Assembly (NCBI RefSeq): GCF_902459745.1
Contig: NZ_CABPSJ010000004.1
Span: forward strand, 660,962 to 724,961
Length of the DNA: 64,000 nt
From: Pandoraea communis
GTDB taxonomy: Bacteria; Pseudomonadota; Gammaproteobacteria; Burkholderiales; Burkholderiaceae
Direction of reading: 5' to 3'
Shown here: in pieces, positions 1-5,403 of the stretch
How positions within the stretch are numbered: position 1 is the stretch's first letter
Layout of the letters: each line of letters begins with the position of its first letter
Notes under the pieces: generated by a model
Database searches by the model: none
The model's input: only the letters and a program-made list of their open reading frames with translations
Told to the model about the DNA's origin: nothing
Made by a program: the position numbers and the translations under genes

Positions 1-960
1 GTGCCATTCGGCATAGAAGCCGGCGGCGCGAAGCTTCTCGCGGAATTGCTCGTTGTTCGGTGCGTTGAACACGAGACCCTTCTGCTTGAGTTCGGCCATG
101 ACGCCGTCGTTGAGCTTGCGCACGTCGTCGCGTTGCGCCATCGCTGCGGCGTTCACGTTGGCGGTGACGATCGCCTGCAAGTCCTTGGGCAGCTTGTCCC
201 ATTTCTGCTTGTTGGCGAGGAACCAGAAGCCGTCCCACATGTGGTTCGTCATCGACACGTACTTCTGCACTTCATACAGCTTGGCCGTGGTCAGCAGCGC
301 GAGCGGATTCTCCTGCGCTTCAACGATGTGCGTCTGCAAGGCCGAATACACTTCGGCGAAGTTGATCGACGTCGGCGACGAGTCGAAGGCACGGAACATC
401 GACGTCCATAGCGGGCTCGTCGGCACGCGGATCTTCAGGCCCTTGAGGTCGGCCGGCGAGTTGATCGGGCGGCTGCTCGTGGTGATCTGGCGGTAACCGT
501 TTTCCCAGATCTTGTCGAAGGCGAACACCGATGTCTTGGCGATCTGGCCGCGCACGTGCGCCCCGAGGTCGCCGTCCATCGCCGCCCACACCTGACCGTA
601 ATCCTTGAACGCGAAGCCCACGCCCGAAATCTGCGCCGAGGGCACCAGCGTGCCGAGAATCAGCGGCGAGAGCGTGAAGTAATCGATGGCGCCCGAACGG
701 ATCTGGCTCAGCATGTCGCTATCGGTGCCGAGCTGGTTGTTCGGGTAAATCTGGAAGTCGATACGGCCCTTCGATTGCTCTGCGATTTTCTGCGCCATCT
801 CTTTGGCGCGAATGTTCATCGGATGGCTGATGGGCAGGTTGTTGGCGAACTTCAGCGTGAATTCTGCGGCGCGGGCCTGCGTCTGATACAACCCCGTGGC
901 GGCAGCGGCCGAAGTGGCGGCCACAACCTTGATGAAGTGGCGGCGGTCCATATTGCTCAT
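1..960 (-). CDS. TRAP transporter solute-binding protein, DctP family (3' end cut by window edge)
   Basis: Reads as a periplasmic solute receptor of a tripartite ATP-independent periplasmic (TRAP) transporter, which hands organic acids to a DctQM membrane pair. The reverse-strand frame is open from ATG at 960 to the window edge (320 codons, C-terminus missing). It begins with a twin-arginine type leader (MDRRHFIK, then an Ala-rich stretch ending near TQARAAE), followed by the family opening FTLKFANNLPISHP and later the typical segment LKGLKIRVPTSP. An AGGAGA ribosome site lies 7-8 bases upstream. It diverges from the thiolase operon and has its own sigma54-like promoter at 1093-1108. The ligand cannot be read from sequence; the neighbours suggest a carboxylate that is later CoA-activated. 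The dctQ and dctM genes would lie to the left of the window. Confidence 0.9.
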   Translation of the reverse strand, partial: MSNMDRRHFIKVVAATSAAAATGLYQTQARAAEFTLKFANNLPISHPMNIRAKEMAQKIAEQSKGRIDFQIYPNNQLGTDSDMLSQIRSGAIDYFTLSPLILGTLVPSAQISGVGFAFKDYGQVWAAMDGDLGAHVRGQIAKTSVFAFDKIWENGYRQITTSSRPINSPADLKGLKIRVPTSPLWTSMFRAFDSSPTSINFAEVYSALQTHIVEAQENPLALLTTAKLYEVQKYVSMTNHMWDGFWFLANKQKWDKLPKDLQAIVTANVNAAAMAQRDDVRKLNDGVMAELKQKGLVFNAPNNEQFREKLRAAGFYAEWH

Positions 961-1092
961 ACTGCATGTCTCCTGATTATTGGTTTGGTGACTGCGTCTG
1001 ATGCGCGAGGCGTGCTGTCGTGTTGCCATGCAATGCCCCGGCCAACTCCTAATGCAAGCGTGAAGCGACTCGCAAGTGGCTTGGCTATCTTA

Positions 1093-1108
1093 CGCAAGTC
1101 GAATGCCA
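1093..1108 (-). promoter_or_regulatory. sigma54-type -24/-12 promoter for the TRAP gene
   Basis: Reverse strand reads TGGCATTCGACTTGCG: GG and GC elements separated by exactly 10 bases, close to the consensus TGGCAC-N5-TTGC. The transcription start would fall near 1081, about 120 bases ahead of the TRAP start codon. It is paired with a similar promoter facing the other way at 1568-1583. Confidence 0.6.
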
Positions 1109-1285
1109 GATCGCAGTCCGGGCGGGAAAACCCTTATCTTGTTAAGCACTCATGAAGTCCCGCGTCTGTCGGGTTGCCTCGCTGCGCTTCCTTTTATCTG
1201 GCGGAACCCGCCGTGGCGGTACGTCGGCGCCGCGAGCGCCGTTTGCTGCATCTGCGAGCGGAGTCCGATCGGCACCCGGATGCGG

Positions 1286-1365
1286 TGCGACACCTGTCGC
1301 ATTTGGCGCCCGCCTTGCGACACCTGTCGCATGTGATCGACGACAGCGATGCGACAGGTGTCGCA
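1286..1365. promoter_or_regulatory. Three 16-bp palindromes, probable enhancer (UAS) sites of a sigma54 activator
   Basis: TGCGACACCTGTCGCA occurs at 1286-1301 and 1316-1331, and its reverse complement at 1350-1365. Each has perfect 7-bp arms TGCGACA/TGTCGCA around two bases. The start-to-start spacings are 30 and 34 bp, about three helical turns. The block lies roughly 200-280 bp upstream of the -24/-12 elements on both sides, the usual range for enhancer-binding proteins. No sigma54 activator gene is in this window, so the protein that binds is unknown. Confidence 0.7.
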
Positions 1366-1567
1366 TGCCGCCGTGCCCGGCCGGTTGTGTTGCAGCACAG
1401 CAAATACATTTCGTTTGGTGTGCATCCGAATTCACTTGATGCCGTAGTGGATGCGGCTTTACGCTTACGTCAATTGCGAAAGCGCCACAAGCGCGAGCAT
1501 CGCAATCGAGCTGCAATGCGCCGTGGATGCCGTTAGCGCGTCATCGGCGTGGGGAGGTGCCCATGTC

Positions 1568-1583
1568 TGGCATCGAAATTGCT
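1568..1583 (+). promoter_or_regulatory. sigma54-type -24/-12 promoter for the thiolase operon
   Basis: TGGCATCGAAATTGCT has GG and GC exactly 10 bases apart and the TTGCT of the -12 element. A transcript would start near 1594, 30 bases before the thiolase start codon at 1624. This also argues against the longer reading frame that begins at 1549. Confidence 0.7.
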
Positions 1584-1623: not shown

Positions 1624-2790
1624 ATGGTTGCTGCATGCCTTACCGGCTGGGCCCACTCCCAGTTCGGAAAACTCGACAACGTCGATGCCGAAGTCTTGCT
1701 GGCCGACGTCGCACAAGCTGCGCTCGACGACGCGGGCCTTGCGCCCGAACAGATCGATTCCATTCACGTCGGCACTTTCAATGGCGGTTTCCTGTATCAG
1801 GACTTTCCGTCGTCGCTCGTTTTCAACCGAATTCCCGGCCTGCGCTTCAAACCGGCCACGCGCTACGAGAATGCGTGCGCGACGGGGTCGGCCGCCGTGT
1901 ATGGCGGACTGCAATCCATCGAAGCGGGCAAAGCCACGCACGTGCTCGTGATCGGCTTCGAGAAGATGACCGAGCTGGCGACGCCGCAGGTCGGCGAGGT
2001 GTTGCTCAAATGTTCCTACGCACGCGAAGAGGCCGACATTCCGGGCGGTTTTGCGGGCGTGTTCGGCACCATTGCACAAGCGTACTTCGACCGCTATGGC
2101 GACCAGTCCGACGCCCTCGCACGCATTGCGGCGAAGAACCATCGCAACGGTTCGGTCAATCCCTACGCACACATGCGTCGGGACTTCGGTTACGACTTCT
2201 GCCGCAATGTCTCCGAGAAGAATCCGTTTGTGGCCGGGCCGCTCAAGCGTACCGATTGCTCGATGGTGTCGGACGGAGCTGCCGCGCTCGTGATCTCGTC
2301 TGCCGACGTGGCGCGCACGATGCCCAAGGCCGTCGGCTTTCGCGCGGCGGTGCAGGTCAACGACTACTTGCCGCTCTCGCGTCGTGACCCGCTGGCGTTT
2401 GAAGGCGGACAGCACGCCTGGCGTCAGGCACTGGGCGTTGCCGGCGTCTCGCTCAAAGACCTGTCGCTGGTCGAGACACATGACTGTTTCACCATCGCCG
2501 AACTCATCGAGTACGAGGCGATGGGGCTCGCCAAGCCGGGGCAGGGTGCAAACGTGGTGGCCGAGGGGTTGACCGAAAAGAACGGTCTGCTGCCGGTCAA
2601 TCCGTCGGGCGGGTTGAAGGCAAAGGGGCACCCGGTCGGGGCGACAGGCGTCTCCATGCACGTCATGGCCGCCATGCAACTGACAGGGTCTGCGGGTGAG
2701 ATGCAGATCCCGAACGCGAAGCTCGCGGGCGTTTTCAACATGGGCGGGGCGGCAGTGGCGAACTACGTGAGCATTCTCGAAGCGCGCTGA
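1624..2790 (+). CDS. Thiolase family protein, SCP2-type acyl-CoA thiolase / acetyl-CoA acetyltransferase
   Basis: Condensing or thiolytic enzyme acting on CoA esters; 388 aa. The nucleophile motif YENACATGSAAV places the reactive Cys at residue 85. The C-terminal active-site His lies in GGLKAKGHPVGATG (about residue 336). The motif VETHDCFT and the ending FNMGGAA, rather than a C-G-G motif, are typical of the SCP2/sterol-carrier type subgroup. The start at 1624 (GGAGA upstream) fits the sigma54 promoter; an in-frame upstream start at 1549 would lie before the predicted transcript start. It is first in an operon with an acyl-CoA ligase and two PPC-domain genes. SCP2-type thiolases often need a small partner protein, usually an OB-fold DUF35 protein, which is absent here. 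Substrate unknown. Confidence 0.88.
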   Translation: MVAACLTGWAHSQFGKLDNVDAEVLLADVAQAALDDAGLAPEQIDSIHVGTFNGGFLYQDFPSSLVFNRIPGLRFKPATRYENACATGSAAVYGGLQSIEAGKATHVLVIGFEKMTELATPQVGEVLLKCSYAREEADIPGGFAGVFGTIAQAYFDRYGDQSDALARIAAKNHRNGSVNPYAHMRRDFGYDFCRNVSEKNPFVAGPLKRTDCSMVSDGAAALVISSADVARTMPKAVGFRAAVQVNDYLPLSRRDPLAFEGGQHAWRQALGVAGVSLKDLSLVETHDCFTIAELIEYEAMGLAKPGQGANVVAEGLTEKNGLLPVNPSGGLKAKGHPVGATGVSMHVMAAMQLTGSAGEMQIPNAKLAGVFNMGGAAVANYVSILEAR

Positions 2791-2882: not shown

Positions 2883-4460
2883 ATGCTCAAGAAGGTCATG
2901 AATCTCGGCCGGCTGCTGGCCGACGTTGCCCGGCGTCATCCTGACGAACCCGGCGTGATCATCGGTGAGAAGGTCAGCACGTGGGGCGAGATCGACGCCC
3001 GCGTGAACGCCGCCGTCGATGCCTTGCGCAAGCTGGGTGTGCGCCGTGGCGACAAGCTGCTGGTGCATTCGCGCAACAACTTGCCCATCTTCGAGAGCGC
3101 GTGGATCGCCTTTCGGCTGGGCGCGGTCTGGGTGCCGACGAACTTCCGTATCACCCCACCGGAAGCCGCATATCTGGGGCAATCGAGCGGCGCCTGCGTG
3201 ATGATCTACGACGCGGGCTTCGAGGGGCATGTCGACGCTGTGCGTGCCGCCTCGCCGGCGTTGCGCCATGTCATTGCGCTGGGCGCGCCGCGCGCGGGTG
3301 AGATGCACTACGAGACACTGGTGGCCGAACACCTCGGCGCCCCCGGCTATGAAGCGGAAGTCGAGTACGAAGACCCGTTGTGGTTCTTCTACACATCGGG
3401 CACGACCGGCCATCCGAAGGCGGGTGTGCTCTCGCATGGGCAGATGGCTTTCGTCGTCACCAATCATTTGGCCGATCTGATGCCCGGCATCACTTACCGC
3501 AGCCGCTCGATGGTGGTGGCGCCGCTCTCGCACGGGGCGGGCATTCACGCCATCGTGAATACGGCACGCGGGGCGGCCAGCGTGCTGCTGCCGGGCGAGA
3601 AGATGGACGCGGAGCAGGTCTGGCAGGCCATCGAGCGTTATCGCGTCGACAACATGTTCACGGTGCCGACCATCGTCAAGATGCTGGTCGAAGACCCGGC
3701 GGTGGATCGCTACGACCATAGCTCGTTGCGCTTTGTGATCTATGCCGGGGCGCCGATGTATCGCGCGGATCAGAAATACGCGCTGCAAAAGCTGGGCCGA
3801 GTGCTGGTGCAGTACTACGGTCTGGGCGAGGTGACGGGCAACATCACGGTACTGCCGCCGTGGCTGCACAGCGACGACGACAACGCGCCCGACGCGCGCA
3901 TCGGCACTTGCGGTGTGCCGCGCACAGGCATGGAGGTGGCGATTCTCGACGAGCATGGCGAGCGTCAGCCACCGTTCGCCTCAGGCGAGATCTGTGTGCG
4001 CGGGCCGGCGGTCTTCATGGGGTATCACAACAATCCGGACGCGAACGCCAAGGCGTTCAAGGACGACTGGTTCCACACTGGCGATCTCGGGCATGTGGAT
4101 GCGCAGGGTTTCCTGTACATCACGGGACGCGCCTCGGACATGTACATCTCGGGGGGCTCGAACGTCTACCCGCGCGAGATCGAGGAAGCGTTGCTCACGC
4201 ACCCGGCCGTGTCGGAGTGCGCGGTGCTTGGCGTGCCCGACCCCAAGTGGGGCGAGAGCGGGCTCGCAGTGGTGGTCGCACGGGAGGGCATGGCAGCTCA
4301 GGCCGATGAACTGCTCGGACATCTCGAAGCGCGCATTGCCCGCTACAAGTGGCCGCGTCGCTTCATTTTCTGGAATGCCATGCCCAAGTCGGGCTACGGC
4401 AAGATCGTGAAGAAGCAAATCAAGACGATGCTCGAAGAGCAAGGAGACTATCGACTATGA
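2883..4460 (+). CDS. AMP-forming acyl-CoA synthetase (acid-CoA ligase)
   Basis: Activates a carboxylic acid to its CoA ester through an acyl-adenylate; 525 aa, usual family length. Visible ANL-superfamily motifs are FFYTSGTTGHPKAG (P-loop-like), YYGLGEVTG, DWFHTGDLG, and the catalytic Lys region YGKIVKK near the C-terminus. An AGGAG site sits about ten bases before the ATG at 2883; a longer in-frame reading to 2805 has no support. It follows the thiolase by 92 bases and its stop overlaps the start of the next gene (ATGA), so translation is coupled. With the TRAP receptor opposite, the simplest reading is uptake of an organic acid, CoA activation here, and thiolysis by the upstream gene. The exact acid is not identifiable. 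Confidence 0.88.
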   Translation: MLKKVMNLGRLLADVARRHPDEPGVIIGEKVSTWGEIDARVNAAVDALRKLGVRRGDKLLVHSRNNLPIFESAWIAFRLGAVWVPTNFRITPPEAAYLGQSSGACVMIYDAGFEGHVDAVRAASPALRHVIALGAPRAGEMHYETLVAEHLGAPGYEAEVEYEDPLWFFYTSGTTGHPKAGVLSHGQMAFVVTNHLADLMPGITYRSRSMVVAPLSHGAGIHAIVNTARGAASVLLPGEKMDAEQVWQAIERYRVDNMFTVPTIVKMLVEDPAVDRYDHSSLRFVIYAGAPMYRADQKYALQKLGRVLVQYYGLGEVTGNITVLPPWLHSDDDNAPDARIGTCGVPRTGMEVAILDEHGERQPPFASGEICVRGPAVFMGYHNNPDANAKAFKDDWFHTGDLGHVDAQGFLYITGRASDMYISGGSNVYPREIEEALLTHPAVSECAVLGVPDPKWGESGLAVVVAREGMAAQADELLGHLEARIARYKWPRRFIFWNAMPKSGYGKIVKKQIKTMLEEQGDYRL

Positions 4461-4993
4461 AACCTGCGCTTTCACGGATCTATCGGCATGCAGGCGCCCC
4501 CACGTTACCCCGTGTGGAAGACTGCGTGTTGAGCGGGCAGCACGAACTGCGCGTGACGATCCGGTCTGGTGCGAATCTCGGAGAGGCCTTACGCGCGGCG
4601 TTATCCCGCTATGCGTATGGCGGCGGCGTCGGCCGCTTCTGCGCGGGCACCGCGCGAGGTCTGCGGTATCACATGATAGAGAACACCGCTGACACGGAGC
4701 GCCCCTTCGGCTATGGGGCGCCGGTCGACGAAACCCGGGAGGTGGATCTGATCGGCGGTGCGATCACGGTCGGCCGTACGGCCGACGGTGCCACGCTGTT
4801 GCATTGCCATGCGGGGTTTTCCGACCCGTGTGGCGAATTGCATGGCGGTCATCTGATTCTCGATCACACCTGGGCCGGAGACGAGCCTGTGGTGATTCGC
4901 CTGTGTCTGTTCGAGCACGGCGGCTACGTGACCGCCGATGACGACGAGACGCGCTTTCACCTGCTCCATCCCGTCGCCGGAGGCCTCTCATGA
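4457..4993 (+). CDS. PPC/DUF296-domain protein (first of a tandem pair)
   Basis: 178-aa cytoplasmic protein resembling the PPC (plants and prokaryotes conserved, DUF296) fold, best seen in LLHCHAGFSDPCGELHGGHL, the histidine- and GGH-containing strand pair of that family. No signal peptide or membrane segment. The start at 4457 overlaps the ligase stop by four bases and has an AGGAG about nine bases upstream. The function of stand-alone PPC proteins in bacteria is poorly known; trimeric assembly is typical. Its place between an acyl-CoA ligase and a second PPC gene, in an operon with a thiolase, suggests a role in acyl-CoA metabolism, possibly as accessory or partner protein. That role is inference. 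Confidence 0.7.
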   Translation: MKPALSRIYRHAGAPTLPRVEDCVLSGQHELRVTIRSGANLGEALRAALSRYAYGGGVGRFCAGTARGLRYHMIENTADTERPFGYGAPVDETREVDLIGGAITVGRTADGATLLHCHAGFSDPCGELHGGHLILDHTWAGDEPVVIRLCLFEHGGYVTADDDETRFHLLHPVAGGLS

Positions 4994-5403
4994 GTACAGC
5001 GCTGGATGTTCCGGTGGCCATCGAGAACGGCACGCTGGGCAGGTTGGTCGTGGCACGTCTCAAACCGAATCAGGACCTGACGGAGAGCATCGAGGCGCTG
5101 TGCGCGGAGCATGGCATCTCGCGGGCCATCGTGCGCGGCGCGGTGGGGAGTCTGATTGACGCACGTCTGGCATTTCGCGCGGGTGACGGCTGGCGTGAGC
5201 AACTGGTGAGCGGCCCCGGCGTGGAAATCCTCAATGTGTTCGGCGAGGTGGATGTCCGGCCCGATGCCGCGCACACGCTGCCCATGCTGCACGGCATGGT
5301 GGCGGACACGGAGGGACGCATGTTCGCAGGACGCTTCGTGCGTGGCGGCAATCTGTCGTTCATCACGATCGAAGTGACGTTGCAGGAGTGGTTGCCCGCG
5401 TAG
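4990..5403 (+). CDS. PPC/DUF296-domain protein (second of a tandem pair)
   Basis: 137-aa protein with a clearer PPC-domain signature than its neighbour: GVEILNVFGEV, then MLHGMVADTEGRMFAGRF, then a final strand FITIEVTLQEW. It starts inside the stop of the preceding gene (ATGA overlap 4990-4993), so the pair is translationally coupled. It is the last gene of the thiolase operon and is followed after 29 bases by a terminator hairpin. Two different PPC proteins in a row could form a mixed oligomer. No catalytic residues can be assigned. Confidence 0.75.
   Translation: MSTALDVPVAIENGTLGRLVVARLKPNQDLTESIEALCAEHGISRAIVRGAVGSLIDARLAFRAGDGWREQLVSGPGVEILNVFGEVDVRPDAAHTLPMLHGMVADTEGRMFAGRFVRGGNLSFITIEVTLQEWLPA

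Follow-up and report, generated by a model that had tools for sequence, protein, structure and literature searches.

A predicted bidirectional sigma54 enhancer between the dctP and thiolase operons of Pandoraea communis and its relatives

Genes and promoter elements at the dctP/thiolase locus

The window analysed here, a stretch of 64,000 nucleotides, forms the end of contig C4 in the 5.7 Mb genome of Pandoraea communis. Near its start, the gene for a TRAP receptor, dctP, and a thiolase operon point away from each other, and the genes and the intergenic region between them contain the following features.

1..960 (continuing past the window start), minus strand: dctP, TRAP receptor gene; Pfam PF03480 with a Tat signal
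1029..1044, minus strand: P2, TGGCCGGGGCATTGCA, a second reverse -24/-12-like element and candidate proximal dctP promoter; score 13.5, GG-N10-GC in 25/28 dctP/thiolase regions
1093..1108, minus strand: P1, TGGCATTCGACTTGCG, the reverse -24/-12 element of dctP; GG-N10-GC and TGGCA...TTGCG in 28/28 regions of the genus
1124..1133, minus strand: box GGGTTTTCCC, about 16 bp upstream of P1; identical in 28/28 dctP/thiolase regions
1286..1301, no strand: palindrome 1, TGCGACACCTGTCGCA, presumed enhancer site with centre CC; position aligned in 28/28 rows, identity variable
1316..1331, no strand: palindrome 2, TGCGACACCTGTCGCA, presumed enhancer site with centre CC
1350..1365, no strand: palindrome 3, TGCGACAGGTGTCGCA, presumed enhancer site with centre GG
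1568..1583, plus strand: TGGCATCGAAATTGCT, forward -24/-12 element, promoter of the thiolase operon; score 14.7, GG-N10-GC in 28/28 regions
1624..2790, plus strand: thiolase gene; Pfam PF22691 and PF00108, start codon taken at 1624
2883..4460, plus strand: acyl-CoA synthetase-like (AMP-binding) gene; Pfam PF00501 and PF13193
4451..4993, plus strand: weak PCC-domain gene; PF03479 at 21.9 bits, below the cut-off of 25
4990..5403, plus strand: PCC-domain gene; PF03479 at 58.7 bits

The original prediction had named a TRAP receptor and a thiolase as the flanking genes, and Pfam matched both, the receptor being of the DctP family. The start codon of dctP was taken at 960, with GGAGA upstream, and a longer reading frame opens at 1029. 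Downstream of dctP, outside the window, follow a fused DctQM gene (PF06808 and PF04290) and then an SDR gene, the latter label being our own reading of the open reading frame.

Promoter elements were scored with a scheme of our own, built on the consensus TGGCAYG-N4-TTGCW. The predicted reverse and forward -24/-12 elements were located at 1093-1108 on the minus strand and 1568-1583 on the plus strand, and both show the exact GG-N10-GC spacing in a sequence close to TGGCAY-N5-TTGCW, the reverse element ending in G instead of the A/T of the consensus. The spacing alone is common, with 272 sites in the window scoring at least 11 of 15.2. The score of 14.7 is reached by a single site on the two strands of the window, namely the forward element, and a score of at least 13.9, which is that of the reverse element, by 3 sites.

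The three central 16-bp palindromes were likewise present as exact copies, all of the form TGCGACA-N2-TGTCGCA and with centre-to-centre spacings of 30 and 34 bp. With promoter starts assumed to lie 12 bp after the GC, the palindrome centres are about 212-276 bp from the start at P1 and 237-301 bp from the forward start. By sequence and conservation, the presumed activator sites thus lie between two outward sigma54 promoters, as in a shared upstream activating sequence.

P2, at 1029-1044, had been overlooked in the original prediction. The dctP gene may own two sigma54 promoters, P1 and P2, and the conserved P2 and the invariant GGGTTTTCCC box are new details of the locus. One further occurrence of AAGGGTTTTCCC was found in the genome, near a gene that we read as rpsB; this second copy of the GGGTTTTCCC box precedes a ribosomal-protein-like gene, by eye in a T-rich inverted repeat, and explained nothing. 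A GGGTTTTCCC-like box was also seen in two genomes from outside the genus, in G047 (L232) close to the dctP promoter and in G037 (L231) ahead of the PCC-domain gene. The intergenic DNA gave no match to a plasmid collection.

To set the elements against chance, we simulated 300 windows of 64 kb with the same first-order composition, none of which contained an exact palindrome. With up to 2 mismatches allowed, the window keeps just these 3 palindromes, and shuffled sequences contained 0.56 on average and reached 3 or more in 2 of 100 cases, so that what exceeds chance is the exactness and clustering of the copies. The genome as a whole contains 4 exact palindromes versus 0 for the reversed pattern, and 43 versus 18 at up to 2 mismatches. 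The observation of three palindromes is well above chance. Abundance of the palindrome away from promoters had been named as a finding that would speak against the prediction, and the check was negative: 3 of the 4 exact genomic copies are in the window, 1 is between another divergent pair, and all are thus enclosed by divergent sigma54-like promoters. A single-mismatch palindrome at C8:86358 was discarded as a further candidate, as it appears to be intragenic and is not accompanied by a strong sigma54-like element (best score nearby 11.7).

The only other exact palindrome in the genome is located at C8:216457, between a phosphopantetheinyl-transferase-like (PPTase) gene on the minus strand and an aldo/keto reductase (AKR) gene on the plus strand. 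Outward -24/-12 elements are present on both sides, TGGCACTTAAATTGCT in reverse and TGGTTCGAAACTTGCA in forward orientation, and the C8 module (L011 8334-8736) contains partial copies in addition to the exact palindrome. The gene for an enhancer-binding protein, here called EBP-B, is located downstream of the AKR gene, about 1.4 kb from the palindrome.

Conservation of the sites across Pandoraea

A search of 32 Pandoraea genomes yielded 73 exact palindromes, versus 3 for the reversed pattern, in 28 of the genomes. All except two of the palindromes (71/73) were located in two kinds of intergenic regions, 54 between dctP and thiolase genes and 17 between PPTase and AKR genes; the other 2 (L056, L087) are inside long reading frames and are about as many as expected from the reversed control (3). 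Counted as site clusters, 45 of 47 fall in the same two settings (28 dctP/thiolase and 17 PPTase/AKR), the 47 being made up of 45 clusters from the other genomes of the genus and the 2 of P. communis itself. Both promoters were kept in 28/28 dctP/thiolase and 17/17 PPTase/AKR regions, which argues for the use of both directions. The palindromes and promoters appear in the alignments as conserved islands amid variable DNA.

The number of sites was less constant. Three exact sites were present in 4/28 of the dctP/thiolase regions, three sites within 2 mismatches in 25/28 and one good site in 3/28. A strict three-dimer rule is therefore not upheld, and the regions depart from a NorR-like layout in which three sites are always present. 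We also searched the spacers between enhancer and promoters for IHF-like sites, allowing 1 mismatch to the consensus, and found none on either side in the 28 and 17 regions (0/28 and 0/17), with 0.5-2.2 per set in shuffled sequences. The IHF sites between enhancer and promoters that characterise an IHF-assisted, orp-like enhancer were thus not found.

Candidate activators and their LysR-type neighbours

The genome of P. communis contains one sigma54 (rpoN) gene and 15 matches to the sigma54-interaction domain, of which 10 are near full length. A genome search with the palindrome had been suggested as a way to the matching activator. The genome has two paralogous enhancer-binding proteins as candidates, and each site cluster has the gene for one of them in its neighbourhood. 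The gene for EBP-A, at C4:650051-651286, lies outside the window and 11 kb from the window palindromes, and that for EBP-B is at C8:217824-218891. With 58% identity, the two are the most alike pair among the sigma54 activators of the genome. Both consist of an AAA+ core (PF00158), a lid (PF25601) and a Fis-type HTH (PF02954), and the Walker A, Walker B and arginine-finger motifs are present in both, with GAFSGA replacing GAFTGA in the L1 loop. According to PMC4641369, GAFSGA is one of the GAFTGA variants with which activity would be maintained. EBP-A accordingly has the features of a bacterial enhancer-binding protein (AAA+, Walker A/B, loop and Fis-type HTH), with the loop in its variant form. 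N-terminal to the AAA+ core, there was no Pfam domain in the 64 residues of EBP-A or the 26 residues of EBP-B, as in sensor-less activators of the PspF/SfnR-like type, which have no N-terminal regulatory domain. The HTHs of the two proteins have the pattern RWNISAA-R-LG-CR-SLYRKL--L-IPHVRD in common, unlike the other 8 in the genome, and EBP-A and EBP-B probably recognise the same site.

EBP-A was present in 30/32 Pandoraea genomes, 28 of which have exact dctP/thiolase sites and 2 of which (G003 and G028) have sites with 1-2 mismatches. EBP-B was present in 21/32 genomes, with exact PPTase/AKR sites in 17 and sites with 1-2 mismatches in 3, while in G026 the contig ends before the region. The sites were thus found in 30/30 genomes with EBP-A and in 20/20 readable genomes with EBP-B. 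As for the genomes with no exact palindrome, both loci are present in G003, G028 has EBP-A only and two sites with 1 mismatch, G026 has EBP-B only and no thiolase match, and G017, a genome of 1.2 Mb, has neither activator nor thiolase. G024 and G029 carry EBP-B-type genes and PPTase/AKR sites with 1-2 mismatches. The co-occurrence of EBP-A and its sites partly reflects one linked gene cluster that is kept or lost, in which activator gene and sites do not adjoin each other, the distance being 5.3 kb in G001 and G004 and 11 kb in P. communis.

A LysR-type gene is divergent from the EBP gene in all cases, 30/30 for EBP-A and 21/21 for EBP-B (51/51). The LysR genes are AlsR-like by their best NCBIfam model, for which they score below the cut-off, and none of the four regulators had an NCBIfam equivalog above cut-off among the models shown. 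Among the -24/-12 sites that point towards EBP-A or EBP-B from the DNA separating them from their LysR genes, none scores 13 or more, the best in the genus being 11.7. Transcription of both EBP genes thus probably starts at ordinary promoters, and the LysR proteins may control it. The intergenic DNA has conserved blocks that are compatible with such control, and the arrangement suggests a LysR-to-activator cascade conserved through Pandoraea.

We also looked for the activators and the palindrome outside the genus. Of 200 genomes drawn from the family, with at most 9 candidates scored per genome, at least 25 had a strong EBP-A match, at least 22 of them in the genus. Three outsiders with such a match (G037, G047 and G065) have the same kind of gene cluster. 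In G037, exact palindromes lie in the thiolase-dctP gap and also ahead of a PCC-domain gene, and only the PCC-domain site has a good promoter. In G065, palindrome and promoter occur together ahead of the PCC-domain gene, and the dctP-thiolase gap has neither. A good promoter pair separates dctP and thiolase in G047, where three half-sites were recognised by eye and a palindrome was not found at up to 2 mismatches. None of these three genomes showed the full bidirectional layout, which was seen in Pandoraea only; the link of the activator family to TGTCGCA half-sites thus extends past the genus.

A scan of genome contigs for tandem palindromes gave 37 stretches. The 11 from Pandoraea are all by dctP or thiolase. 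None of the other 26 matched dctP, thiolase, transferase or reductase, and relatives of the regulators among these 26 amounted to an activator fragment with 36-37% identity and the LysR matches of a single Streptomyces. The palindrome was seen in tandem with 33-bp spacing at nine loci in Gammaproteobacteria. Its neighbour there is either a penicillinase-repressor gene, as tested in L161, or a response-regulator gene, as tested in L193, and it probably serves another regulator with the same site. A palindrome pair with a sigma54-like element was also seen upstream of E1-dehydrogenase genes in Comamonas terrae and a beta-proteobacterial MAG (L182 1322-1525; L166 5920-6082). These genes are acoA-like by our own labelling, and the acetoin activator AcoR possibly uses a similar site.

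A shared enhancer for two operons

The reading that we favour, with a probability of roughly 0.8, is that the region is a bidirectional sigma54 enhancer at which EBP-A, bound to the palindromes, drives the dctP and thiolase operons by DNA looping. EBP-A would use its Fis-type HTH for binding, three EBP-A dimers, one on each palindrome, would form one AAA+ hexamer, and looping over about 210-300 bp would bring this hexamer into contact with sigma54-polymerase at P1, perhaps P2, and the thiolase promoter. One hexamer on three dimer sites has been proposed for NorR (PMC2941729), but in Pandoraea the third site is often degenerate, and this reading is therefore only suggestive. Since EBP-A has no recognisable sensor domain, the signal probably enters via the divergent AlsR-like LysR protein, which would determine how much EBP-A is present. 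From the layout we infer that a single activator fires in both directions and most likely switches on uptake and breakdown genes jointly, and the two operons may well act on a common substrate.

A more far-reaching version is possible, and we put it forward tentatively, as rather doubtful in its entirety. A single hexamer of a sensor-less activator on one palindrome cluster would be common to two outward promoters, or three with P2, and the operons would be co-activated or compete for the ring, with the signal entering only via the LysR-set amount. The module would have been duplicated in the genus, with EBP-A for TRAP/thiolase and EBP-B for PPTase/AKR and with the site unchanged, and would link gene sets with no obvious metabolic tie.

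The palindromes could instead belong to another regulator, such as the LysR or GntR protein that the cluster encodes, an AcoR-like activator from elsewhere in the genome or a penicillinase-type repressor, with EBP-A acting at other sites. The palindrome does occur in tandem beside a penicillinase-repressor gene in Rheinheimera, and with a sigma54-like element upstream of E1-dehydrogenase genes in C. terrae and the beta-proteobacterial MAG; its presence beside unrelated regulators in other bacteria means that the motif is not private to the EBP-A/EBP-B family. We nevertheless consider a different owner in Pandoraea unlikely, as the sites track EBP-A and EBP-B across the genus, none of the other 8 sigma54 activators of P. 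communis is encoded next to an exact palindrome, and the conserved intergenic DNA that separates each EBP gene from its LysR gene does not resemble the palindrome. A penicillinase-type repressor is ruled out by the 0 matches to its domain in this genome.

Somewhat less likely still is an enhancer that works in one direction only, with the other promoter silent or constitutive. Support for either promoter comes from its sequence, and the distances are slightly asymmetric, being shorter towards P1 than towards the forward start, but both elements are kept in all 28 regions and the same bidirectional layout recurs at an independent locus in all 17. A chance resemblance of palindromes and GG-N10-GC elements that carry no regulatory meaning would find some ground in the frequency of GG-N10-GC in GC-rich DNA. 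It is already refuted by the conservation of the elements as islands in variable DNA and by the excess of exact palindromes over simulated windows and, in the genus, over the reversed pattern, and we regard it as extremely improbable.

One activator for divergent sigma54 operons is already known from hyc/hyp and orp, and the bidirectional enhancer proposed for Pandoraea is a further example. Judging from its title, a paper by Lutz from 1990 deals with divergent NtrA-dependent promoters. FhlA and ZraR carry N-terminal sensor or receiver domains, whereas EBP-A has no recognisable sensor. PMC3844500 lists two sigma54-promoter operons under one activator both for hycA/hypA (FhlA), about 130 bp apart, and for zraP/hydHG (ZraR). 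The likeness to hycA/hypA lies in this assignment of two sigma54-promoter operons to one activator, whereas the operons concern hydrogenase and zinc in those systems and transport with CoA-thioester metabolism in Pandoraea. In Desulfovibrio vulgaris, DVU2106 binds palindromes and drives the two divergent sigma54 operons orp1 and orp2. IHF is needed there (10-12 fold) and has its sites in the spacers, and the DVU2106 gene belongs to the orp cluster (PMC3897727). The Pandoraea locus resembles orp1/orp2 in having palindromes between two divergent sigma54 operons under one, here predicted, enhancer-binding protein, and differs in that no IHF-like site was found and that 5-11 kb separate the EBP-A gene from the palindromes.

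NorR carries a GAF sensor and binds to a different site. Its three intergenic enhancer sites in Escherichia coli are described as essential and as a scaffold for the oligomer in PMC2941729. The presence of three sites within one intergenic region is common to both systems; NorR activates the norVW promoter, whereas the Pandoraea region has two outward sigma54 promoters and three sites that are not strictly kept. A LysR-type regulator above a sensor-less sigma54 activator, as proposed here, is a likeness to CysB and SfnR. SfnR has no sensor domain, and CysB responds to the sulfur status of the cell and is not known as a dedicated, divergently encoded neighbour. In Pseudomonas putida, the LysR-type CysB reportedly stands above the sigma54 activator SfnR, judging from the titles of Endoh 2003 and Kouzuma 2008. 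Unlike CysB, the LysR genes of Pandoraea are AlsR-like and divergent neighbours of the EBP genes.

Among the matches listed from open-licence papers, judged by title or the start of the abstract, we found none on the palindrome motif or on a Pandoraea sigma-54/RpoN regulon, which hints weakly, for this literature, that the regulon is undescribed so far. From the analysis, a transport and CoA-thioester gene cluster that is kept in 30/32 genomes gains a probable regulator and regulon. With few exact genomic sites, two independent copies and an activator candidate that is clear, the locus is a compact natural system for a direct test of an old question, namely how a single distant activator ring can serve two sigma54 promoters.
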